IMG/VR virus record: IMGVR_UViG_3300027867_000061
Location: 1-25,545 of that record
Direction: 5' to 3' (one strand)
DNA: 25,545 bases
Source: a virus
Numbering within the stretch: position 1 is the first letter of the stretch; each line of letters starts with the position of its first letter. Positions 975 through 23,183 of the stretch are shown one piece after another. The notes below the pieces were generated by a model that saw only the letters and a program-made list of their open reading frames with translations, ran no database searches and had not been told where the DNA came from. A program made the position numbers and the translations under genes.

Positions 975-3005
975 ATGGGCGGCGCTGCCGGGCACCTCCA
1001 GCACCTCTACGAGAACCTGGGACTGACCTTCGGCGAGATCAAGGAGGTCCTGGCCAACGCGGCTGAAGGGCACCTCGAGAAGGTCAGCGAGAAGCTCGAC
1101 GGCATGAATCTCGTCTTCACCTGGGCGCCCGACGGCCTGAAGGCTGCTCGGAACGGTGGTGAGATCAAGGCGGGCGGGCTGGATGCCGCGGGACTGGCCA
1201 AGCGTTTCCGTGACCGCCCCAACCAGAACATCGAGGTCGCCTTCAGCGCGGCGTTCAAGGTGCTGAACCAGGCCTTGGGTGTGCTGGACGAGAAGACCCG
1301 GGCCCACGTCTTCAGGGACGGACGCAGGTGGTACTCCATGGAGATCATCTACGCGTCTGAACCCAACACTATCAACTACGACAGCAACAACATCGTCTTC
1401 CACGGCTGGCCCATCTACGACGTCAAGGACACGGGTGTCGAGAAGTCGAGCGACGACAGCGGCGTCGAGCTGCTGACTAAACGCATCGACCAAATGCAGA
1501 ACGCGATCACCCAGCGTGACTGGCAGGTGCGGGGGCCAGCGTTGCTGCGGTTGCAGAAGCTGGGCGACGGCAGCATCCTGAGGAGAGCCGAGGCGCAGAT
1601 CGACGGGGCCATGGCAGCTGGGGGTGTCGACGACGGGGACACCGTCTATGACTACCTACGTAACCTGTTTGCCGACGATGTCAGGCGTTTGAAGCTCCCA
1701 GACGCGGTGTACAAGATGGTGGTCGAGCGGTGTGCCACTGGCACCCCTTCTGTCGTCGACATCAAGCGGCAGACGCCCAAGGACCAGCAGGCGACGATGC
1801 AGGCCTACGTCAAGGCCAGCGAAACGTTGCGTGACCAGTGGATGGCTCCCATCGAGAGCGCGATCCACTTCTTTGCCATCGAGGTGCTGCGTGGCCTGCA
1901 CTCGACCCTGATCTCCAAGTCAGACGAGGAGGTCGCCCGCCTACGCCATGACCTGGGACGTGCCATCAGGACCATCGAGGCCAGCGGCCACCCGCGGGCG
2001 ATGGAGGTGTTGCAGGCCGAGATGGCTCGCCTGGGCAACATTGAGAACCTGGCCGCAGCGATGGAGGGCATCGTCTTCTTCTTCAAGGGCGAGGCCTACA
2101 AGTTCACGGGCGCCTTTGCACCCGCACACCAGCTCATGGCATTGTTCAAGTACGGACGAAAGGACATCCCGAAGATGGACCTGGGCGAAACGAAACAGCA
2201 CAACACGTTCGATGACCTCCAACCCGTCAGCCTGGAAGACTTCCACCACGTGTGGCCCGTCTTGGAAGCTGACCTCGAGATGATCGGCTTGGAGGGCATC
2301 GAGCTCATCGGCAGCACTGGCAAGAAGCAGGTGATGGGCGACGTGGACGTGGCGGGCCGCTTCGAGGGCGGCGCGCCAGCGTTCTACGAGGCCGCCGTCA
2401 GGGTCTTTGGCCAGGACAGCGTCAGGAAGTCTGGGGGCAGCGTGGTGTCCTTCAAGTACCTCATGGACGTGCCTGCCTTCCAGGTTGACGTCATGGTGGG
2501 CGACCCCAAGTACCTGAGGTGGTCGCGGTTCGGCACCTCCCAGGACGAGGGCCACTCTGACTTCTCTCCTGTCAAGAGCGTGGGCCGCAACGTCCTGCTC
2601 AACGTCATCACTCGCTTCGCCTCACAGGCCAAGTGGCCCAGCGCATCGCCACTGGAGCGAGCCCGCATGAGCATCGACTTCGACAGGGGCCTGTATGAGG
2701 TCAACCAGACGAAGAAGGGCAAGAACGACCGGGTCCTGAAGGAGTGGAAGACCACGTACCGCTACTTCGTCAGCGGGGACCCCGATGTCATCGCCCACCG
2801 GGTGTTTGGGAAAGGGATCACCGCGGACCAGACCCTGACGTTTGAGGGTGTGGTCGAAGCGCTGCACCGCTCGCGGTGGAAGAAGCTGGCTCCCCAGATC
2901 ATGCAGACGTTTGCCACCGAGATGCGTGAGCTGGTCAGCAAGACACCTCACCTCTTGGGTGATGATCCTGAGAAAGTTCTGACGTACATCGACACCTTTG
3001 CCTGA
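975..3005 (+). CDS. Two-domain nucleotidyltransferase: ligase-like plus Pol-beta-like, 676 aa
   Basis: The start at 975 gives the N-terminus MGGAAGHLQHLYENLGLT, which I recall from DUF6267-type phage proteins; an upstream GTG at 927 lies inside the preceding gene. The first half has marks of covalent nucleotidyltransferases (DNA/RNA ligases, capping enzymes): KLDG at residues 40-43 as motif I, with Lys40 the likely adenylated residue, and EGIVFFFKG from residue 364 as motif IV, followed by YKFTG as a motif V-like lysine. The second half has a Pol-beta superfamily pattern: GS at 446-447, DVD at 456-458 and a third acidic residue at 505 (FQVDVM). This suggests that one chain can both add nucleotides and seal or activate ends, but neither activity is proven. 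The middle (about 150-340) is mostly helical. It may form an operon with the small genes upstream. Confidence 0.7.
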   Translation: MGGAAGHLQHLYENLGLTFGEIKEVLANAAEGHLEKVSEKLDGMNLVFTWAPDGLKAARNGGEIKAGGLDAAGLAKRFRDRPNQNIEVAFSAAFKVLNQALGVLDEKTRAHVFRDGRRWYSMEIIYASEPNTINYDSNNIVFHGWPIYDVKDTGVEKSSDDSGVELLTKRIDQMQNAITQRDWQVRGPALLRLQKLGDGSILRRAEAQIDGAMAAGGVDDGDTVYDYLRNLFADDVRRLKLPDAVYKMVVERCATGTPSVVDIKRQTPKDQQATMQAYVKASETLRDQWMAPIESAIHFFAIEVLRGLHSTLISKSDEEVARLRHDLGRAIRTIEASGHPRAMEVLQAEMARLGNIENLAAAMEGIVFFFKGEAYKFTGAFAPAHQLMALFKYGRKDIPKMDLGETKQHNTFDDLQPVSLEDFHHVWPVLEADLEMIGLEGIELIGSTGKKQVMGDVDVAGRFEGGAPAFYEAAVRVFGQDSVRKSGGSVVSFKYLMDVPAFQVDVMVGDPKYLRWSRFGTSQDEGHSDFSPVKSVGRNVLLNVITRFASQAKWPSASPLERARMSIDFDRGLYEVNQTKKGKNDRVLKEWKTTYRYFVSGDPDVIAHRVFGKGITADQTLTFEGVVEALHRSRWKKLAPQIMQTFATEMRELVSKTPHLLGDDPEKVLTYIDTFA

Positions 3006-4759: not shown

Positions 4760-5218
4760 ATGAGCAAAGAGAACAAGGCACGACTGAAGACAATGTCGTG
4801 TGGCGGGCTCCCGGTGCGACACCGGGAAGGCAAGACCGAAGTGCTCCTGATCAAGCAGTTCGCTCACAAGGACAGCTGGGGCATTCCCAAGGGACACCAA
4901 CACCCGGGCGAGACGCTGGAAGAGTGCGCCAAGCGAGAAGTTCGTGAGGAAGCTGGTGTCCAAGTCGAGCTGGGCCAGCGTCTGCCCAACGTGGGCACCG
5001 TCTTTCGGAACGAGGACAAGACAGTAGTCTCCTGGCTGTGCACTGTGGTGGGCAGCGAAGAGCCCCGGCACGATGACCCTGACAGCGAGGTCGCGGACGC
5101 CCGGTGGTTTCACATCGATGCACTGCCCCAGGTCCACGTCTACCAGAGGCCCCTGATCGCCGCAGCGATCGACCTCCTGATGGGCAGGAGCGTGGTACTT
5201 AACGAGGATGGCGGCTGA
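4760..5218 (+). CDS. Nudix hydrolase, 152 aa
   Basis: Nudix enzymes hydrolyse nucleoside diphosphates linked to another group, for example oxidised dNTPs, dinucleoside polyphosphates or capped RNA. The complete box GX5EX7REUXEEXGU is present at residues 45-67 (G45, E51, R59-E60, E63-E64, G66), with the metal-binding glutamates intact. The preceding WGIPKGH segment resembles dinucleoside-polyphosphate hydrolases, so Ap4A-type activity is a possibility. I chose the ATG at 4760 because it follows a TATAGT/TAGTGT box; a longer frame from 4715 would run through that promoter. The end overlaps the next gene by 11 bases. This enzyme lacks the LLRxYI tag, unlike the second Nudix protein in the window. 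Confidence 0.88.
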   Translation: MSKENKARLKTMSCGGLPVRHREGKTEVLLIKQFAHKDSWGIPKGHQHPGETLEECAKREVREEAGVQVELGQRLPNVGTVFRNEDKTVVSWLCTVVGSEEPRHDDPDSEVADARWFHIDALPQVHVYQRPLIAAAIDLLMGRSVVLNEDGG

Positions 5219-6305
5219 CAAGCTCCTCAGGGAGTACATCCGAGAGGTCCTGAAAGAGGACCAAGGCGGCGGTGGGGGTGACGGTGGCACCTACTACGAC
5301 CTTGCCATGGCCGACGCAACCCAGAACCCGTGGGGCGTCAGCTTCGGCTCGGGCGAGCAGCTGTTCAACATCTTCGTCAAGCCTTTCACCGATGTTGTCC
5401 AGACGGCGATGGGCAAGACCAAGGAGCTGTCCCAGAAAGCCCAGACCCTGACCAAGGTCGCGTTTGAGACCGTGGCAACAACCCTGATCCCGATCCTGAC
5501 CGACAGCTACAACGAGATCTTCGCAAAGGACAAGGAACGGATGCAGAAGATCCGCCAGCAATACGGCGACGTCTACAAGGCGAACTGGGATGCGTTCAAG
5601 GACAACGACGTCCAGCTAGTCGGCTTCCTGTACGACCCGGCACGCTACATCTTGGGCAAGCTGTTGAAGAAGTCGCCGGGCGTGGCGATGGACCTCATCA
5701 GCACTGTCACCGGCGGCACCATCGACGGTTGGCTTGACAAGGTCAAGGAAGAGTACGGCATCGGCGGCGACGAAGAGGTCGCCACGGGCTTGGACGTGGG
5801 CGGTGGCAAGAAAAAGAAGAAGAACATCGAGGACCTCATCCCGGGTGGCTATGGTGGCGGGTACGACATGGGTGGCATGGGCATGGAGAGCGTCATGCGT
5901 GAGGACGGCGGGAAAGCCAAACCCACGCTGGAGCAATTGCTGTCCAACCCGAAGGTCGTCCAAGCGATCAACGGTAGCAAGCTGGCACGCCAGATGAAGC
6001 AGCAGGGTGAAGCCGCGGTCCGCGAGCCTTTGCAACAGGTCTTCAAGCAGGCACAAGCGGTGCTGAAGGCGAACTCGTTGCAGGACCTGCAGCAGAAGCT
6101 GGGCAAGCCGCTGAAGGGCATGGAGAAGCTGCAACAGGTAGAGCCCAACGCGCGACAGGCCGCCGAGCAGACCATGCTGGCGGGCGTCAAGAAGTCGATG
6201 AAGGCTTTCTACATCAAGAGCCTGGAGCAGCAAGCCAAGAAGCTGGAAGGCTCGCCCGCGGTGAAGGACTACCAGTCAGTCATCGGCAAGATCAAGTCGC
6301 TCTGA
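5208..6305 (+). CDS. Tagged Gly-rich protein, possibly virion-associated, 365 aa
   Basis: The protein starts MAADKLLREYIREVLKEDQ, carrying the recurrent terminal tag, followed by a Gly-rich linker (about residues 19-27). Residues 28-195 are mostly helical with an amphipathic segment (LFNIFVKPFTDVVQTAMG) and a possible second hydrophobic stretch near YILGKLLKKSPGVAM. Then come a Gly/Lys-rich break (GGGKKKKK, followed by Gly/Met/Tyr-rich sequence) and a Gln-rich helical C-terminus (KQAQAVLKANSLQDLQQKL). I see no enzyme motif. Two helical regions joined by disordered Gly-rich linkers suggest a virion internal or scaffold-like role, which is inference only. The start overlaps the end of the Nudix gene. 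Confidence 0.75.
   Translation: MAADKLLREYIREVLKEDQGGGGGDGGTYYDLAMADATQNPWGVSFGSGEQLFNIFVKPFTDVVQTAMGKTKELSQKAQTLTKVAFETVATTLIPILTDSYNEIFAKDKERMQKIRQQYGDVYKANWDAFKDNDVQLVGFLYDPARYILGKLLKKSPGVAMDLISTVTGGTIDGWLDKVKEEYGIGGDEEVATGLDVGGGKKKKKNIEDLIPGGYGGGYDMGGMGMESVMREDGGKAKPTLEQLLSNPKVVQAINGSKLARQMKQQGEAAVREPLQQVFKQAQAVLKANSLQDLQQKLGKPLKGMEKLQQVEPNARQAAEQTMLAGVKKSMKAFYIKSLEQQAKKLEGSPAVKDYQSVIGKIKSL
5223..5252 (+). other. N-terminal copy of the LLRxYIxEVL tag
   Basis: Residues 6-15 (LLREYIREVL) precede a Gly-rich linker. Hydrophobic residues at positions 1, 2, 5, 6, 9 and 10 of the segment make one face of an amphipathic helix. Confidence 0.7.
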
Positions 6306-7228: not shown

Positions 7229-8761
7229 TTGAAACACACCCACCGCTGGGACGGCATAGAGCGTCCGTACACCTGGGCTGAAGTGAAGCGCTTGCAAGGG
7301 CGCACCAAGATCAAGCACACCTTGGCCGAGGACGGTGCCAACCGCCTGTGGTCATTGATGAATGCCAAGCCTTACGTCAGGGCATTGGGTGCCAGCACTG
7401 GCAACATGGCGGTGCAGCAGGTCCGGGCGGGCATGTGCTCGATCTACTGCAGCGGTTGGCAAGTCGCTGCTGATGCCAACACCAGCGGGCAGACATACCC
7501 CGACCAGAGCTTGTACCCCGCTGACAGCGTGCCCAGCCTGGTCAGGCGCATCAACAACGCTCTCCTTCGGGCTGAGCAGATCGACGCGCTCGATGACGAC
7601 GGCGACCCAAAGCGAGCCTACACCCACTGGATGGCTCCCATCGTCGCTGACGCCGAAGCGGGTTTCGGCGGGCCTCTCAACGCCTACGAGCTGATGAGGG
7701 CGATGATCGAGGCGGGCGCCGCGGGCGTCCACTTCGAGGACCAGCTCGCGAGCGAGAAGAAGTGCGGCCACATGGGTGGCAAGGTCCTCGTGCCAACATC
7801 GCAGTTCGTTCGCACCCTGGTCGCTGCCCGGCTCGCCGCCGACGTGCTCGAGGTGCCGACGATCATCATCGGTCGGACTGACGCCCTGGGTGCTCAGCTG
7901 ATCACCAGCGACGTGGACGAACGTGACTGGCGTTTCATCGACCACTCAAAGGGCAGGACCAGCGAGGGCTTCTGGCACCTGGGCGGTGACCCGATGCAAC
8001 GGGCCATCGAACGAGCCTGTGCCTATGCACCCTACTGCGACCTGCTCTGGTTCGAGACCAGCGAGCCCAACATGCACCAGGCTTGGGAGTTCGCTGACCG
8101 GGTCCACCTGAAGTTCCCGGGCAAGCGTCTGGCCTACAACTGCTCGCCGTCGTTCAACTGGAAGAAGAAGCTGTGTGACGTCGACATCTACCGCTTCCAG
8201 GACGAGCTGGGCAAGATGGGCTACAGCTTCCAGTTCGTCACTCTCGCCGGCTTCCACGCCCTGTCATACGGGATGTTCGACCTGGCTTCGGACTACCTGG
8301 AGAGGGGCATGGCGGCGTACGCTGAGTTGCAGCAGCGAGAGTTCGCTGGTGAGCAGCGTGGCTACACTGCCACCAAGCACCAGCACGAGGTCGGCACGGG
8401 CTACTTCGATGCCGTCGCCAACACCATCAGCGGGGGCAAGTCGTCCACGCTTGCGCTGGCTGGTTCGACAGAGACCGAACAGTTCGCCCAGGGCGGAGTA
8501 GGATCGTCACATGGCTCAGAAGAAGGTCTCGGTGCCCAAGGCGTTGCAGCCCCTGCGGACGTGGGGGCTGTCCCTGACCCAGATGGAGCTGCTCCACCTG
8601 CGGGACCTGTTCAACGTGCTGCTGCCCCCGGACGGCCAGATGACAGTCAGCCAGATGGTGGCGAGGTCGGAGGACCGCAACATCCTCGAGGCCGCGCTGT
8701 GGAAGAAGGTCAGCAACGCGTGCAAGCAGGCCAGGATCCCGCTGAACGACAAGGCGCCTGA
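7229..8761 (+). CDS. aceA: Isocitrate lyase, with an unusual C-terminal run-on
   Basis: Isocitrate lyase splits isocitrate into glyoxylate and succinate, the first step of the glyoxylate shunt. The match to bacterial AceA runs from [20 protein letters not shown] to the family ending GSTETEQF at residue 419. Active-site features are intact: KKCGHMGGK with the catalytic Cys at residue 179, [18 protein letters not shown], and [10 protein letters not shown] for substrate binding. The start is TTG; no better start covers the conserved N-terminus. After QF the frame does not stop but runs for 91 more codons through the next gene in another frame, giving Gly/Pro/Gln-rich sequence without fold-like character. 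The ancestral stop was probably lost. No malate synthase is seen here. Confidence 0.92.
8499..8504 (+). promoter_or_regulatory. Probable -10 box TAGGAT, inside the isocitrate lyase frame
   Basis: TAGGAT ends 6 bases before the ATG at 8511. It lies just beyond the codons for the conserved end of isocitrate lyase, where that frame reads through it as GTA GGA. Confidence 0.55.
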
Positions 8762-13153: not shown

Positions 13154-13443
13154 AGAACCTGACCCGAGCAGAACGTAAGAAGGCGCAGCGCCAGTTCAAA
13201 GTGGGCGACATCGTCACCTGGGGCGATGGCTTCATTGCCCACCGGGTCGTCGAAGTCAGGGTTGAGGGCGTCGTTGTCGATGTTACTTCTCAAACTGATG
13301 CTCACTTCTTCGCTGACCCACAGCCTGATGGTAGGTTCTTCCTGCTGGTATCGTTCGACCGCAACCATCGTGCACGTTCGGGCAGGGGTCCTGTCCGTCA
13401 CAGCGACATGGAACCCGACAAGCTGAGGGTGGTGTTGATATGA
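13150..13443 (+). CDS. Small beta-rich protein, 97 aa
   Basis: After a basic helix (LTRAERKKAQRQF) comes a KVGDIVTWGDGFIAHRVVEV segment followed by VVVDVTS, which resembles a small beta-barrel (SH3- or KOW-like) in which a strand-turn-strand carries Gly and Asp. The rest has a FFLLVSF strand and a short basic end. No function can be assigned. ATGA overlaps on both sides tie it to the previous gene and to the flap endonuclease. Confidence 0.65.
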   Translation: MKNLTRAERKKAQRQFKVGDIVTWGDGFIAHRVVEVRVEGVVVDVTSQTDAHFFADPQPDGRFFLLVSFDRNHRARSGRGPVRHSDMEPDKLRVVLI

Positions 13444-14291
13444 GCAAGATCCTGATCATTGACGGTGCGAACTTCATGTACCGTGCCCGTAGCGGTTTCC
13501 AGCTGGGTGACTTCAACGTCGTCTTCAACTTTGTCCGCAACCTGCGGTCGCTGGTCGAGAAGCTGGCACCCACCCGGGTCTACTTCACCCTGGAAGGCGC
13601 GCCGAGACGCCAGCTGGCGTTGCTGCCCTCGTACAAGGCGAACCGCATCGAGCGACGTGAGGCGGAGGCGCTCAAGCCTGTCGAGGGCCGACGCAGCGAG
13701 GAGGACTACAGGCGTCAGAACGAGATCATCGTGCGGATGCTGTCCTACATGCTGCCCATCACAGTCATCCAGCACCCGGACTTCGAGGCCGACGACCTGA
13801 TCTACAACCTGGTCTACAGGTCGAGCTCGGCTATCGAGTTCACCGTGGTGTCAACGGACACCGACTTCATCCAGATGCTCCAGGAGTTCGGCAACGTCAA
13901 GCTCTACAACCCGATCACCAAGGCCTACGTCGAACCCCCGCAGGACTACAGCTACGTCGTCTGGAAGTCTCTACGAGGTGACGGCAGCGATAACATTCCC
14001 AGCCTGCCCGGTGTCAACGACGAGAAGGCTGCCCAACTCGCCACCGACCCACACGCTCTGATGAACTTCCTCGAGAGCAGCCCAGAGCTGAAGGCGCAGG
14101 CCGACCGCAACTTCGAGCTCATCAAGCTCCAACCGTGGAGCGACGAAGAAGCCCTGAAGATGAGGTCCTCGGGGTGCCAGCGTGACTGGAGCCTGATCAA
14201 GGCAGAGTTCGAGAGCATGGCCTTCAAGAGCATGCTCAAAGAGGGGACGTGGGACAAGTTCGTCGCCACTTTCGATCCACTCTGGGGATGA
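13440..14291 (+). CDS. 5'-3' exonuclease / flap endonuclease, 283 aa
   Basis: This enzyme removes 5' flaps and RNA primers, like T4 RNase H, T5 D15 exonuclease and the N-terminal domain of Pol I. Metal-binding acids appear in order: IIDGANF (D8), FEADDL (E116, D118, D119), STDTDF (D140, D142) and LRGDGSDNIPSLPGV (D181, D184), the last being the start of the helix-hairpin-helix DNA-binding motif. PSYKANR at residues 63-69 is the conserved arch/clamp segment. Length suits the single-domain phage family. Overlaps by ATGA with the previous gene. It probably acts in phage replication and repair together with the glycosylases and the Pol-beta/ligase-like protein. Confidence 0.9.
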   Translation: MSKILIIDGANFMYRARSGFQLGDFNVVFNFVRNLRSLVEKLAPTRVYFTLEGAPRRQLALLPSYKANRIERREAEALKPVEGRRSEEDYRRQNEIIVRMLSYMLPITVIQHPDFEADDLIYNLVYRSSSAIEFTVVSTDTDFIQMLQEFGNVKLYNPITKAYVEPPQDYSYVVWKSLRGDGSDNIPSLPGVNDEKAAQLATDPHALMNFLESSPELKAQADRNFELIKLQPWSDEEALKMRSSGCQRDWSLIKAEFESMAFKSMLKEGTWDKFVATFDPLWG

Positions 14292-15367: not shown

Positions 15368-15625
15368 ATGGCACGCGTCCCCCTCACCGACAACCTCATC
15401 AAGCAGATGGTCAACGAAGCCCTGGCACCCGCTGGAGGCACCGGCTCCGTCAAGGAGATGCTGCAGAACCTGGTCGGTGGCATCGGCGAGAAGCTGAAGG
15501 GCCAGTACGACCCTGGCGCCATCGACGCTGAGATGAAGGAGCTTTCGACCCAGATCGAGGCCCTCATCCGTTCGAGCGTGGCCAAACTGAAGTCGTCCAA
15601 GCCTGCTGCCACACCGACCGCCTGA
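15368..15625 (+). CDS. Small helical protein, 85 aa
   Basis: The protein starts MARVPLTDNLIKQMVNEAL, an amphipathic helix that weakly recalls the terminal tag pattern, followed by a Gly break and two more helices (SVKEMLQNLVGGIGEKL and AEMKELSTQIEALIRSSVAKL), then a Pro/Ala/Thr tail. There is no catalytic motif. It lies just before the lysin gene, so a lysis-related role is conceivable, but it has no membrane segment and no holin character. Function unknown. Confidence 0.65.
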   Translation: MARVPLTDNLIKQMVNEALAPAGGTGSVKEMLQNLVGGIGEKLKGQYDPGAIDAEMKELSTQIEALIRSSVAKLKSSKPAATPTA

Positions 15626-15651: not shown

Positions 15652-16908
15652 ATGAAGACGTCTCAGAACGGCCTGCAGTTCATTGCCAACTGGGAGGGCG
15701 AAGTCGATCACGTTTACAAGGACATCGCGGGGATTCCCACGATCGGCATTGGACACGTGGTCAGGCCCGGGGAGAGCTTCCCCAACGGCATCACCCACGA
15801 CCAGGCGCTGGCGATCTTGGGCCAAGACGTTGCCACCGCCGAGGGTGCTGTCAACAAGGACGTCACCTACACGATGTCCCAGAACATGTTCGATGCCCTG
15901 GTGTCGTTCACGTTCAACTGCGGCACGGGATCGCTGGCCTCGTCATCGATGCGGACCAAGCTCAACGCAGGCGACGTCGCTGGTGCGGCGGATGCGTTGC
16001 TCCTGTGGTGCCACGCCGTCATCAATGGCAAGCTGACCCAGGACCCGGGCCTCTACAAGCGTCGGCTGGCCGAACGCCAGCTGTTCCTGACACCCGACGG
16101 TGCGACGTCTGTCGTGGTGCCACCCCCGGCCCCTGCACTCCCGCCAGTCCCGCCCGCAACGGTCCCGCACCCGGCGCCCGACAGCTCCAACGTGCCCGTT
16201 GCCCAGCAGCAGCTGGTGCCCGGCGAGCAACCTGTCGACAGGATCGTCAGGCTCGTCAAGTCCTACGTGGGTTGCAGCCTCAGCAACCGCCGTGCTGACC
16301 TTGGTGCCCTGGTAGCTCGTGGGGTCGACAACCCGGAGAGCGTTGTCACCATCTCAACCAACTGCGCCACCAGCGCGTTGGGCATCATGGCTGCCGCGGG
16401 CGTGCGGGACGCGATCCTTAACAAGCCCTACCAATCGGGCATGGCGGTGTCCTGGGTCCGGCAGATCGGCATCAACACGGGCGCCCTGGTCAAGTTCGAT
16501 GGCAAGACGATGCCCAAGCGTGGTGCCCTGATGCGGTACAACACCCCGGGCACCAACAACGATCACGTCGAGTGGTGTCTCAGCGACGTCGATGCCAGCG
16601 GCAACGCTGACCACGGCGGTGGCGGCCGCGCCAACAACGCCATCACCGAGGGAACGGGCAACGTCCTGTCGAGCCTGGGCCGGCCGCTGCAGGAATGGTG
16701 GGACCCGGACAAGCTGGGCATCCCGGTCCTGGTGCAGGACCAGCCTGCCCCCACGCCGCCCCCACCTGCACCCGTGCCGAGCGTGCCAGTTCCTACCCCA
16801 CCCCCAGCGCCAGCGCCTCCTGCGCCCGCCATCCCCAAGTCCAACCTGCAGTCGATCGTTGACGCGATCGTCTGGCTGGTGAAGATGCTCCTGAAGCCGA
16901 GGACCTGA
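15652..16908 (+). CDS. Two-domain lysin: GH24 lysozyme plus NlpC/P60-like domain, 418 aa
   Basis: The N-terminal domain (about residues 1-150) is a T4-type GH24 muramidase: Glu15, Asp24 and Thr30 keep the exact spacing of E11-D20-T26 in T4 lysozyme, within NWEGEVDHVYKDIAGIPTIG. A Pro/Ala-rich linker follows (about 160-195), then a second domain with TNCATSALGI (Cys) and NNDHVEWCLSD (His), the order seen in NlpC/P60 or CHAP peptidases; this assignment is less sure. A second Pro linker leads to a C-terminal amphipathic or membrane-seeking helix (SIVDAIVWLVKMLL). It would cut both glycan and peptide bonds of peptidoglycan. No signal peptide is visible, so a holin or virion route would be needed. 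It overlaps the next gene by TGATG. Confidence 0.85.
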   Translation: MKTSQNGLQFIANWEGEVDHVYKDIAGIPTIGIGHVVRPGESFPNGITHDQALAILGQDVATAEGAVNKDVTYTMSQNMFDALVSFTFNCGTGSLASSSMRTKLNAGDVAGAADALLLWCHAVINGKLTQDPGLYKRRLAERQLFLTPDGATSVVVPPPAPALPPVPPATVPHPAPDSSNVPVAQQQLVPGEQPVDRIVRLVKSYVGCSLSNRRADLGALVARGVDNPESVVTISTNCATSALGIMAAAGVRDAILNKPYQSGMAVSWVRQIGINTGALVKFDGKTMPKRGALMRYNTPGTNNDHVEWCLSDVDASGNADHGGGGRANNAITEGTGNVLSSLGRPLQEWWDPDKLGIPVLVQDQPAPTPPPPAPVPSVPVPTPPPAPAPPAPAIPKSNLQSIVDAIVWLVKMLLKPRT

Positions 16909-17231
16909 TGGACGACCTGCTGCGCCAGTACATCCACGCGACGCTGCAGGAGCTACGCGTCGATCCCAAGATGATGGCATTGTTGAAGGGCACCGACCTG
17001 CGGACCATGACTGGAGCTGGGAACAAGGAGAGCCAGCGAGTCGCCGAAGACTGGCTCGACAACCTTGGTGGACAGGTGTCGCCCAGGGACCGCAACGTTG
17101 TCACCCGGTTCGTGATGCGTCGGTGGCCCGGCATCCTCCACCGCTACCACGGAAACGCGGTGCAGGCACAGCAAACCATGTACAACCTGCTCGACACGCG
17201 GTTCCATGACCTCAGGGTGTATGAGCGATGA
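16908..17231 (+). CDS. Tagged small protein, 107 aa
   Basis: The N-terminus MDDLLRQYIHATLQEL matches the recurrent tag. Unlike the enzymes that carry the tag through a long linker, here it is followed almost at once by a helical body (LKGTDLRTMTGAG, SQRVAEDWLDNLGGQV, NVVTRFVMRRWPGILHRYHG, QAQQTMYNLLDTRF) without a catalytic motif. I do not recognise the family. Start TGATG overlaps the lysin stop; end ATGA overlaps the next gene. Confidence 0.7.
   Translation: MDDLLRQYIHATLQELRVDPKMMALLKGTDLRTMTGAGNKESQRVAEDWLDNLGGQVSPRDRNVVTRFVMRRWPGILHRYHGNAVQAQQTMYNLLDTRFHDLRVYER
16917..16946 (+). other. N-terminal copy of the LLRxYIxEVL tag (divergent)
   Basis: Residues 4-13 (LLRQYIHATL) match the tag at most hydrophobic positions. 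The REV core is replaced by HAT. Confidence 0.55.
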
Positions 17232-17461
17232 AGGGCGATAGCAACGGCAAGTTCCTCCTGGTCCTGCTGGGGTTCATGTTCGCGTTGATGTGCATCGGGA
17301 CCTGCGCAGGTCAGTGCCGGGTGCAGGTGCAGTCGCACCCGACGGCAGCACCCGTGAGCAGCACGTCTGCATCAACCTCTGAAGAACCACCGCCCGTCTG
17401 CACCAGCACGACTTCGTGTCCCACACCTGGAGGCCACCGTGTCCACCCAGCTGCTCCGTGA
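17228..17461 (+). CDS. Small membrane or secreted protein, 77 aa
   Basis: After a short basic start (MKGDSNGK) there is a single hydrophobic segment (FLLVLLGFMFALMCIG, about residues 9-24) followed by cysteines (TCAGQC) and a Ser/Thr/Pro-rich tail. This could be a signal peptide, a membrane anchor, or a lipoprotein signal, although the lipobox is imperfect. Being just after the lysin, it could be a holin- or spanin-like lysis protein, but nothing proves it. The last 23 bases overlap the next gene in another frame. Confidence 0.55.
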   Translation: MKGDSNGKFLLVLLGFMFALMCIGTCAGQCRVQVQSHPTAAPVSSTSASTSEEPPPVCTSTTSCPTPGGHRVHPAAP

Positions 17462-18002
17462 GTACATTCAAGAGGTCCTGAGCGGCTTCGGCAACAAGGA
17501 GTTCGGCAAGGACGGTGTCAGCGGCAACCTGTACCCGACGGGAGCTGGGACGGGCGACGCGGGCATCAGGCCCAACGCCAGCAGCAACATCCTCGACGAC
17601 GAGGAGAACGATGAAGAGCACGAGGAGCAAGACGTGAAACGTGCAGCCTGTTGCCTCATCCTGACGAACGATGGCCACGTCCTGGCAGTGTCTCGCAAGG
17701 ACGACCCGACTGCGTTCGGCCTGCCCGGTGGCAAGGTCGACCCGGGCGAGACGCCCGAGCAAGCCGCGGCCCGTGAGCTGCAAGAGGAGACGGGTCTGAT
17801 CGCCTCGAAACTGTCGCCTGTCTTCACCCACCAGGAGGACGACGGGTTCGTCACCCACACCTTCTCCTGCGAGGTGGAGGGCGAGATCAACACGCCCGAG
17901 AGCGGTGCTGTCAGGTGGGTGAAGCCCGAGGTCCTGTTCAACGGCCCGTTCGGCAAGTACAACATCCGCCTCTGGAAACAGTTGGGACTCCCGCACGAGT
18001 GA
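17439..18002 (+). CDS. Nudix hydrolase with N-terminal tag and linker, 187 aa
   Basis: A complete Nudix box lies at residues 98-120 (G98, E104, R112-E113, E116-E117, G119), in a MutT-like domain starting near residue 67 (KRAACCLILTNDGHVLAVSRK). The first 66 residues are not part of that fold: the tag LLREYIQEVL at 5-14, then a Gly/Asn-rich stretch, then an acidic linker (DDEENDEEHEEQD). The enzyme probably hydrolyses a nucleotide derivative; substrate unknown. The layout suggests that the tag places the enzyme at a particular site or particle. Start GTG overlaps the previous gene. The other Nudix gene (4760) has no tag. Confidence 0.88.
   Translation: MSTQLLREYIQEVLSGFGNKEFGKDGVSGNLYPTGAGTGDAGIRPNASSNILDDEENDEEHEEQDVKRAACCLILTNDGHVLAVSRKDDPTAFGLPGGKVDPGETPEQAAARELQEETGLIASKLSPVFTHQEDDGFVTHTFSCEVEGEINTPESGAVRWVKPEVLFNGPFGKYNIRLWKQLGLPHE
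17451..17480 (+). other. N-terminal copy of the LLRxYIxEVL tag
   Basis: Residues 5-14 (LLREYIQEVL) differ at one position from the copy at 5223. The Arg at the third position uses CGT here and AGG there, so the resemblance is at protein level rather than a recent DNA copy. Confidence 0.7.
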
Positions 18003-18243: not shown

Positions 18244-18408
18244 ATGAATTGGGGTTGGTTGCTACCTTTCGTCATCGTGTATTTCTTCGTTAGGAAGGGC
18301 CTACACTTCCTCGGCGTACACTGGCGTTTCAAACGAGGCGAGAAACCACAGCGTGGTGACGGCGCGTGTCGCCTGTGTGAGGATGGTTGGCACGAGGAGG
18401 ACGAGTGA
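18244..18408 (+). CDS. Very small membrane protein with CxxC, 54 aa
   Basis: One hydrophobic segment (residues 2-16, NWGWLLPFVIVYFFV) is followed by a basic stretch (WRFKRGEKPQRG) and a CRLC pair near the acidic end (EDGWHEEDE). The positive-inside rule puts the C-terminus in the cytoplasm, where the CxxC with His could bind zinc. The gene fills the only space between its neighbours and its stop overlaps the next start as GTGA, which supports it being real. Function unknown. Confidence 0.6.
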   Translation: MNWGWLLPFVIVYFFVRKGLHFLGVHWRFKRGEKPQRGDGACRLCEDGWHEEDE

Positions 18409-19475
18409 GAGAGCCCGGTTTCACTCGGTCGCTCCGTGAAGAGCTGTCACAGGTCCTGCCCGAGTTCCAAGCTCGGGTCCACCGCCAGGGAGCCCTGACC
18501 GACGAGGAACTGGTCAGGATGACGACTCGGCAGGACGCTGACCCGGCGATGTACCTGCCCGATCACCCCGACGAGAAGAGCGTCTTCACCGCCGACAGCA
18601 TCACTGCCGTGGACGAGCTGACGGGCGAGCAGATGATCAAGGAAGGCCAGGTCGCCTTCATCATCCTGGCGGGTGGCGCTGGGACACGGGCGGGTGGCCC
18701 CAAGGTCTTCGCCCAGATCCCGCACGTCGAGACCAGCCTGCTGGCGTGGAAGCTGATGCAGGGTGGCGACATGCCCATCTGGATCATGACGTCGCCCGAC
18801 ATGTTGAACAGCGTGGCCCACCACATGAAGTCGCTAGCACTGTCGCCCAAGACACGTGGTACGATCTTCACCCAGTTTGAGGGCTACAGGCTGTCACCTG
18901 ATAACAGACTCGCCCTGATCGCACCAGGAGTGCCCGACCTGTACCCGTTGGGGCACGGTGACGTGGGCCCAGCGTTGGTCGAGGGCGGCGTCCTGGACGA
19001 GAACAAGGACGTCAAGTACGCTTTCATCTGCAACGTTGACAACGTGTTGGGTTCGCCACACGCGGGCCTGTTGGGCTTCCACAAGCGCCAGGGTGCTGAC
19101 GTCACCTGCGAGGTCATTGACCGACGGCCCGGTGACAAGGGCGGCGTCATCGCGGTCGTCAACAACAGGCTTCAAGTCGCTGAAGACTGGCGCCTGCCCA
19201 CGGGCTTCGCTGACCAGGCTAAGTGGCACAACACCAACAGCATGATCGTGGACATCGGTGTCCTGCGTGCCAACATCGAGTGGCGTTGGCATCGGGTCCG
19301 CAAGCACGTGGGCTCGAGGCTTGTCATTCAGCACGAACGCCTGCTCCAGCAGTACACCGAGGAGTTCCCGACCCAATTCGTCCACGTGCCACGCGAAGCT
19401 CGTTACCAGGCCATCAAGAATGCAGATGACCTTGAGGAGGCGGGTAGGGTATTGTCGGGCTACCGCTATGCCTGA
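18405..19475 (+). CDS. UDP-sugar pyrophosphorylase-like enzyme, 356 aa
   Basis: UDPGP-type enzymes make UDP-glucose, UDP-GlcNAc or related UDP-sugars from UTP and sugar-1-phosphate. Signatures visible: LAGGAGTRAGGPK at residues 88-100 (nucleotide-binding loop and catalytic Lys), PLGHGD at 181-186 and NVDN at 210-213, all as in eukaryotic-type UDPGP/AGX enzymes. Which sugar is used cannot be read from the sequence. GTG at 18405 is in a GTGA overlap and preceded by GGAGG. An in-frame TTG at 18387 is less likely. The N-terminus (SLREELSQVL, residues 9-18) faintly resembles the recurrent tag. The product may feed capsule, cell-wall or DNA-glycosylation chemistry. Confidence 0.82.
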   Translation: MREPGFTRSLREELSQVLPEFQARVHRQGALTDEELVRMTTRQDADPAMYLPDHPDEKSVFTADSITAVDELTGEQMIKEGQVAFIILAGGAGTRAGGPKVFAQIPHVETSLLAWKLMQGGDMPIWIMTSPDMLNSVAHHMKSLALSPKTRGTIFTQFEGYRLSPDNRLALIAPGVPDLYPLGHGDVGPALVEGGVLDENKDVKYAFICNVDNVLGSPHAGLLGFHKRQGADVTCEVIDRRPGDKGGVIAVVNNRLQVAEDWRLPTGFADQAKWHNTNSMIVDIGVLRANIEWRWHRVRKHVGSRLVIQHERLLQQYTEEFPTQFVHVPREARYQAIKNADDLEEAGRVLSGYRYA

Positions 19476-22235: not shown

Positions 22236-22316
22236 AATGCACCTCTTTGATCATAGCTATCTCGTTTGGGCGCAGTTACGTGTACCCTGGTGAGCGTCTG
22301 TGGTACATTGAGGCTC
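22236..22316. promoter_or_regulatory. Divergent promoter region between protease and glycosylase
   Basis: On the minus strand, TATGAT lies 14 bases upstream of the protease start with AGAGGTG between, so that gene has a leader with a ribosome-binding site. On the plus strand, TACATT at 22304-22309 ends 7 bases before the glycosylase start. A palindrome ATAGCTAT lies near the middle. Confidence 0.5.
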
Positions 22317-23183
22317 ATGCCCGAAGGTCCCGAGGTCCGACGCAGCGCCGACTACCTGAGCAAGCTGTTGGTCGGAAAGCACATTGTCAACGCTTTCATT
22401 GGCGACGGCGGACGGTACACCAAGTTGAAACCACCCACGGGTTTCCGTGATTTCGTTGAGGACCTGAGCAAGGGTCCGTGCCTGATCGAAGCGATCGATG
22501 CCAAGGGCAAGTTCATGTGGTGGCAGCTCAAGAGGGGCGACACCACGTGGTTCATGTGGGTGACCTACGGGATGTCTGGGCAGTGGCGGGACGAGCAGAA
22601 CAAGTACACGACCTTCGGCATCAACTACGCCGAACGAGGCATCTTCGATGAGGAAGGTCGCTACGTCCACCCGAAAGCGTTGTACTTCAACGACATCCGA
22701 CACTTCGGCACCATCCACCTCGTCAACGATGCCCAGAAGCACGCAAAGAAGCTGGCTTCGCTTGGGCCCGACATGCTACGTAACCCGCCCACTGAGCTGG
22801 AGTTCCAGCTGAGGTTGAGCAGCCGGGCGCTGAAGACTGTGGCTGAGGCTCTGATGGACCAGAAGGTGGTCTCGGGCATCGGGAACTACGTCAAGGCCGA
22901 GGCGCTCTACCTGGCCGAGATCTCGCCACACCGCTTGGTCAGGTCACTGACCCCAGCTGAGAGACGTGTCCTCCGCGAACAGATCATCAACGTGATGGGT
23001 GCGAGCTACGCGACTGGCGGGGCGACGATCAGCACCTACCGCAATGCGGACGGCACGAAAGGTGGGGCCCAAAGACGGTTCGCGGTGTATGGTAATCAGA
23101 CGGACCCGATGGGCAACCCTGTCGTGCGGGAAGAGACCAAAGACGGTCGCACCACGCACTGGGTCCCCAGCGTCCAACACTGA
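22317..23183 (+). CDS. Fpg/Nei-type DNA glycosylase without zinc-finger cysteines, 288 aa
   Basis: Fpg/Nei enzymes remove oxidised bases and cut the resulting AP site. The N-terminus MPEGPEVRR gives the catalytic Pro2 and Glu3 once Met is removed, which fixes the start at 22317. AKGKFMWW carries the conserved Lys65, and SGIGNYVKAEALY is the helix-two-turn-helix. In the C-terminal finger the family needs four Cys, but here the region RFAVYGNQTDPMGNPVV...DGRTTHWVPSVQ has none, so the zinc finger is a zincless one, as in plant Fpg, NEIL1 or mimivirus Nei; the Arg in DGRTTHW is kept. I cannot tell 8-oxoG from oxidised pyrimidine preference. The TACATT box lies 7 bases upstream. Confidence 0.9.
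   Translation: MPEGPEVRRSADYLSKLLVGKHIVNAFIGDGGRYTKLKPPTGFRDFVEDLSKGPCLIEAIDAKGKFMWWQLKRGDTTWFMWVTYGMSGQWRDEQNKYTTFGINYAERGIFDEEGRYVHPKALYFNDIRHFGTIHLVNDAQKHAKKLASLGPDMLRNPPTELEFQLRLSSRALKTVAEALMDQKVVSGIGNYVKAEALYLAEISPHRLVRSLTPAERRVLREQIINVMGASYATGGATISTYRNADGTKGGAQRRFAVYGNQTDPMGNPVVREETKDGRTTHWVPSVQH

Follow-up and report, generated by a model that had tools for sequence, protein, structure and literature searches.

The gene located at positions 975 to 3005 of the viral record IMGVR_UViG_3300027867_000061 encodes a protein of 676 residues that joins in a single chain a ligase module, probably of the RNA-ligase type, and a predicted family X polymerase module. The term window designates below the whole stretch analysed, i.e. 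this virus record of 25.5 kb. The best single mechanism that we can propose, with about even chances of being correct, is a coupled restoring and sealing of RNA, carried out by a single-chain enzyme that a T4-like-headed jumbo phage encodes. An earlier reading of the sequence (the original prediction) had described ligase-like and Pol-beta-like motifs in this open reading frame (ORF) and had suggested that the protein fills and seals a nucleotide gap or modifies RNA or DNA ends; the observation is confirmed by the present analysis and the interpretation is supported. The ORF is unbroken on the plus strand, at the position and with the length that had been announced. Its ATG is located only 4 nucleotides downstream of the stop of the preceding ORF, so that translational coupling with this upstream ORF is probable.

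The motifs are found at the residues named by the original prediction, namely E39-K40-L-D-G43 and E364-G-I-V-F368 in the first half and G446-S...G455-D456-V-D458 in the second half. A lysine motif is also present after EGIVF, as had been noted, but it reads Y-K376-F-T-G and does not have the form KxK. The reading was to be given up if the predicted folds had no relation to ligases or Pol-beta; in the AlphaFold2 model, both halves are related to these families. From the alignment of 38 ligase domains, we observe that the residues E39, K40, D42, G43, R59, E123, E364, G365, V367 and K376 are unchanged. In motif I, K40 is the predicted AMP (adenosine monophosphate)-accepting lysine and N45 is the RNA-ligase-type residue. 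The full-length model was obtained with a mean pLDDT (predicted local distance difference test) of 89.6 and a pTM (predicted template modelling score) of 0.66. With VIA-align, its residues 3-389 are superimposed on NgrRnl (6vt9; Z 9.1 over 188 residues, 3.9 Å), T4 Rnl1 (2c5u; Z 8.8 over 177 residues, 3.8 Å), Trl1 (Z 8.2) and T4 Rnl2 (Z 8.1). The order of the motifs and the fold are those of the covalent nucleotidyltransferase superfamily (polynucleotide ligases). The profile of the ligase half, compared with the PDB sequences, matched unrelated helical proteins that were disregarded.

The polymerase half was modelled separately with AlphaFold2 (pLDDT 96.7, pTM 0.91). The residues G446, T448, G449, K450, G455, D456, D458, Q503 and D505 are unchanged across 45 polymerase domains; D505, in the sequence FQVDV, is a third acidic residue that comes in addition. 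In the full-length model, residues 405-633 are superimposed by VIA-align on family X polymerases (Thermus thermophilus PolX, Z 9.5). The half taken alone gives Z 10.7 with the same PolX (164 residues, 3.2 Å), 9.6 with Pol lambda, 9.6 with Pol beta and 9.3 with TdT (terminal deoxynucleotidyl transferase), and Foldseek gives a probability of 1.00 with an E of 5e-5. This structural match spans the palm and the thumb only, at about residues 411-630 of the window protein (residues 142-335 of Pol beta), and the 8-kDa lyase domain and the fingers region had no match in the comparison. The identity with family X DNA polymerases is 10-18%, and the profile of the polymerase half retrieved Pol lambda from the PDB sequences with the motif aligned and a weak E of 0.3. 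According to the model, the half consists of a palm fold, which bears the GS..GDxD..D triad, and of a thumb, as in the family X / Pol-beta superfamily.

No match was found in Pfam and PHROGs for either half of the window protein, and phmmer against the PDB returned FIH matches only, which were judged to be due to chance. The ordered ligase and Pol-beta motif pattern was recovered in none of 20,000 composition-preserving shuffles, and the loose pair KxDG..EGxV + GS..GDxD in 0.07% of them. When the gene is compared with the locus L013, its closest relative, purifying selection is seen in the two halves, with a ratio of nonsynonymous to synonymous substitution rates of ~0.20 for the ligase and ~0.41 for the polymerase.

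Features of the ligase-polymerase gene and of two repair-type genes of the window
Feature	Position	Strand	Evidence
Ligase-polymerase gene (protein P0001), 676 residues	975..3005	+	ORF and translation
Module probably of RNA-ligase type, residues 1-407 (fold match 3-389)	975..2195	+	AlphaFold2 model, VIA-align/Foldseek, at least 585 viral relatives
Ligase motif I E39-K40-L-D-G-M-N45	1089..1109	+	Invariant or nearly invariant in 38 relatives
A57-A58-R59, candidate motif Ia arginine	1143..1151	+	R59 invariant; aligned by hhalign with phage RNA ligases
E123, candidate motif III/IIIa glutamate	1341..1343	+	Invariant in 38 ligase domains
Mostly helical insertion between motifs III and IV, residues ~160-355	1452..2039	+	Secondary structure of the model
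Motif IV E364-G-I-V367 and motif V K376	2064..2102	+	Invariant in 38 ligase domains
Interdomain linker GRKDIPKMDLGETKQH	2157..2207	+	Alignment; model pLDDT <50 at residues 406-409; leader analysis
Predicted family X polymerase-type module, residues 411-676	2205..3002	+	Separate AlphaFold2 model; VIA-align; Foldseek
Metal-binding motif G446-S-T-G-K-K...G455-D456-V-D458	2310..2348	+	G, T, G, K, GD and D invariant in 45 relatives
D505 (FQVDV), third catalytic aspartate	2487..2489	+	Invariant in 45 relatives
FEN-like 5'-3' exonuclease (PF02739)	13440-14288		
Fpg/Nei-type DNA glycosylase	22314-23180		

The two modules are repeatedly linked in other phages, which supports the predicted filling and sealing. 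Three phage records were aligned by tblastn to residues 1-395; one of them is Microcystis phage Mel-JY01, in which a cytidylyltransferase-like domain is joined to the ligase domain. The scans of viral contigs detected the complete fusion in the loci L005, L006 and L013 and a split version in L007, where ligase and polymerase are two overlapping genes; the ligase half alone is present in hundreds of viral contigs, mostly divergent. The genes that flank the ligase gene are the same in every examined relative of the window's lineage, only some of which possess the polymerase half. The profile of the polymerase half, used on 17 other ligase-bearing records, detected no copy elsewhere in 16 of them, the exception being L116's own phage. 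The viral contigs searched with the polymerase half alone gave nothing, and with its alignment of five rows only the known loci; a degenerate DNA pattern derived from GSTGK-x4-GDxD, which is independent of the ligase, recovered 119 further stretches. The non-redundant set of polymerase relatives has 91 members: in 41 the polymerase is fused to an ORF with KxDG..EGxV, 26 have one within 2.5 kb (mostly overlapping), eight lack it and 16 are truncated by contig ends, i.e. 67 linked among the 75 testable (background 19/1334 ORFs); the partner is called here by a regular expression and not by a fold test, and some partners may be misjudged. Judging from these sequence relatives, the polymerase half represents a widespread, unnamed phage family.

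The largest fused group has the opposite domain order, with the polymerase family first and then DUF6267 (PF19782), a KWDG..EGYV ligase-like domain located behind the same polymerase family in L112, L135, L161, L192 and others; a literature search found no paper on DUF6267. In Pseudomonas phage PA5oct, a ligase relative (E 1.4e-5), which is also a structural match, is located three genes from a polymerase relative (E 2.7e-12). L192 (2945-5410), L116 (3-4916) and L069 (2329-7224) encode very long proteins in which a HIGH-type nucleotidyltransferase is strung together with polymerase, kinase-like and ligase domains, with [ILV]xE sites at some of the junctions. The HIGH-type label was rejected for L005, L006 and L013, the regular expression having falsely matched the sequence GAFAPAH.

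Motif I is of the form KxDGxN, with the asparagine present in 36 of the 38 ligase relatives, and KxDGxR is the form seen in DNA ligases from phages of this kind (5/5). By hhalign, the ligase family is aligned with phage RNA ligases over the motifs I/Ia (E 1.7e-4), and gives an E of 0.29 and no motif-level match with phage DNA ligases. The C-terminal end of the ligase-only members is located ~30 residues past EGxVF, and there is therefore no room for an OB (oligonucleotide/oligosaccharide-binding) domain. The window protein does not pass the curated profile of RNA_ligase (PF09414); weak, sub-threshold matches to it are found in relatives (L022, E 7e-4), and the ligase gene adjoining the polymerase relative L174 has a weak match (E 2e-5). 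Membership in the ATP (adenosine triphosphate)-dependent DNA ligases (PF01068) was rejected on motif I (N and not R), on the OB domain and on the profile. Other proteins of the ligase family contain polynucleotide kinase-like and HAD-like end-healing domains in the same chain, which fit with the healing and sealing of ends. Taken together, the ligase half is quite probably of the RNA-ligase type rather than of the DNA-ligase type, and an RNA substrate is favoured over DNA.

A second pattern concerns the N-terminal ends. In 59 of 78 ligase domains, [ILVMFY]xE directly precedes a conserved GG (in 15, the GG is preceded by a methionine), and the same type of residues precedes GG in 74 of 87 polymerase domains, these counts being not independent since many loci are related to each other. 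In the control, such a site was found near the start in 1 of 1424 other ORFs. At the start of the ligase domain of L062, L047 and L019, a Cys takes the place of the Glu (LLLC directly before GG). The internal proteins of T4 carry capsid-targeting leaders of 10-20 residues that are removed by the prohead protease (PMC7411985, PMC5694885). The relatives resemble these internal proteins (PMC7411985, PMC3012670) in that their short N-terminal leader ends at a prohead-protease-type [IL]xE; unlike them, the window copy begins with MGG and has neither leader nor [ILV]xE site. Residues 1-4 are disordered in its model, and the fold does not, therefore, account for the conserved GG. Of 18 parent records, 16 contain a PF03420 prohead protease, and 14 of 14 contain a gp23-type capsid protein. 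In twelve of these capsid proteins, a site of the [LI]xE type (in one case MxE-like, LME) lies at residues 42-62, near the position of the cut in T4 gp23, which is cleaved after residue 65 (PMC9958956). The annotation of the PA5oct polymerase relative says that it was detected in virions by electrospray ionization tandem mass spectrometry (ESI-MS/MS).

L005, L006 and L013 contain LLREGG or LLKEGG between ligase and polymerase, a site that the window linker lacks. Since the window copy has neither leader nor internal site, its packaging is not predicted and its modules should remain in one chain. For the many relatives that start after a prohead-protease-type leader, the pattern suggests that the enzymes are packed in the head and injected, although we rate this packaging at somewhat less than an even chance. 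Just as tentatively, phages may possess a widespread repair kit, in which the ligase and a family X polymerase, produced with leaders either as individual proteins or as polyproteins, would be cut by the prohead protease between [ILV]xE and GG, stored in the head and injected, and would repair broken RNA or DNA before the expression of any phage gene; the window copy would represent an uncut, one-chain lineage. Leaders of the type LLREYIREVLKE, common in the ORFs of relatives, are also present at the N-terminal end of four window ORFs (5208-6305, 15368-15625, 16908-17231 and 17439-18002), possibly head-packaged proteins. At L008:9183-9254 and L014:9198-9284, ligase-only genes have leader-like C-terminal tails, LNDAVQNLLRSA and NAVNLLRLLIREE, which are possible leader remnants that preceded a lost polymerase half.

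In the proposed mechanism, the N-terminal module would act as an ATP-dependent RNA-ligase-type nucleotidyltransferase devoid of OB domain, K40 taking AMP and handing it to the 5' phosphate, and the missing nucleotides would be added at the 3' end by the C-terminal family X-type module, through its residues D456, D458 and D505. The addition of nucleotides would come first and the sealing of the nick after, for example on a transfer RNA cut and trimmed by host nucleases. Several points weigh against this mechanism. The Z-scores of 8-9 of the ligase half are in a middling range, and Foldseek, which recovered the same families as VIA-align with the full-length model, gave a modest best E of 3e-3. 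The structures that the polymerase half matches best are those of DNA and not RNA polymerases. Some phages of the window lineage have the ligase only, and filling is thus dispensable. In the L005 and L007 phages, RlaP is already present, together with an Rnl2-type ligase and an ATP DNA ligase. Finally, the DNA glycosylase and the 5'-3' exonuclease of the window fit DNA repair. A repair of DNA gaps, where the polymerase half would fill one-nucleotide gaps with deoxynucleoside triphosphates and the ligase half would seal the DNA nick, in the manner of PgVPolX in base excision repair, would agree with the last observation, with the proximity of the polymerase half to family X DNA polymerases, thumb included, and with the PolX-ligase fusion of this function known in Phaeocystis globosa virus (PMC5537341). 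Nevertheless, we consider it unlikely: the ligase half has no OB domain and an RNA-type motif I, its profile does not match phage DNA ligases, the structural comparison of the polymerase half gave no match to an 8-kDa lyase domain, and the L005 and L007 phages have their separate DNA ligase. The Fpg/Nei-type glycosylase recurs in the parent records of L007, L013 and L014 (genomes G002, G017 and G004), but is missing from G001, which has the fusion, and occurs in G004, where the ligase is found but not the polymerase.

The end modification evoked by the original prediction as an alternative, i.e. an untemplated addition of nucleotides to RNA ends with the ligase half acting separately and no coupled filling, appears improbable, since the repeated fusion or adjacency with ligases implies coupled steps; the presence of the template-independent TdT among the structural matches and the separate genes of L007 are in its favour. 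All catalytic residues are invariant and the window copy has no leader, which makes it very improbable that the protein is mainly a packaged or injected component whose catalytic domains are inactive or do other work (e.g. nucleotidylating a host protein), an explanation to which the leader pattern of the relatives and the virion annotation of the PA5oct relative would correspond. The coupled restoring and sealing of RNA is retained as the best single mechanism.

Among the other genes of the window, a phage-encoded isocitrate lyase (PF00463, E 1e-96) is located at 7229-8761, and close copies (67-69% identity) are found near the ligase gene in L006, L010, L011 and L017. A UDP (uridine diphosphate)-sugar pyrophosphorylase-like nucleotidyltransferase (PF01704) is located at 18387-19472.

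These results propose a structure-based function for two large phage families that are missed by Pfam and PHROGs, as well as a functional hypothesis for DUF6267, a domain of unknown function. They point to a second module restoring and sealing RNA (or DNA) alongside Rnl and RlaP in the same phages, and the leader pattern predicts that virions contain repair enzymes and inject them. If active, a single-chain enzyme that fills and seals would be a useful tool enzyme.

In comparison with known systems, the fold of the nucleotidyltransferase, the KxDGxN motif I and the motifs IV and V are shared with RNA_ligase PF09414, NgrRnl, T4 Rnl1 and T4 Rnl2, but the window protein has no Pfam match and differs by the ~195-residue helical insertion between motifs III and IV. 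The palm and thumb fold and the GS..GDxD..D triad are those of T. thermophilus PolX and of Pol beta, lambda and mu, whereas the structural comparison gave no match to the 8-kDa lyase and fingers regions of family X DNA polymerases. DUF6267 resembles the ligase half by its fusion to the same polymerase family, but it is a different ligase-like family with a polymerase-first order. The predicted role of the phage RlaP nucleotidyltransferases is to replace lost nucleotides ahead of the sealing by an RNA ligase (PMC7824862). RlaP is characterized by a match to the PF10127 profile and by the motif GS.xYG....SDxD near the N-terminus; this identity was rejected for the polymerase half, none of the 45 members matching PF10127 (hhalign E 0.66). 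In the L005 and L007 phages, RlaP (G001, G002) lies beside the Rnl2-type ligase at a separate locus. As in the Rnl and RlaP pairs, an RNA ligase would work with a Pol-beta-superfamily nucleotidyltransferase predicted to restore nucleotides, but the window protein unites both modules in one chain. PgVPolX (PMC5537341) is likewise a single viral protein that combines a ligase with a family X polymerase core; it consists, however, of a polymerase followed by a nicotinamide adenine dinucleotide-dependent DNA ligase, has lyase activity and belongs to a eukaryotic giant algal virus, whereas the window protein has the ligase first, probably of RNA type and without OB domain, and a bacterial host. By analogy, the window enzyme is best explained as working like the Rnl and RlaP pairs and like PgVPolX, yet as a member of neither.
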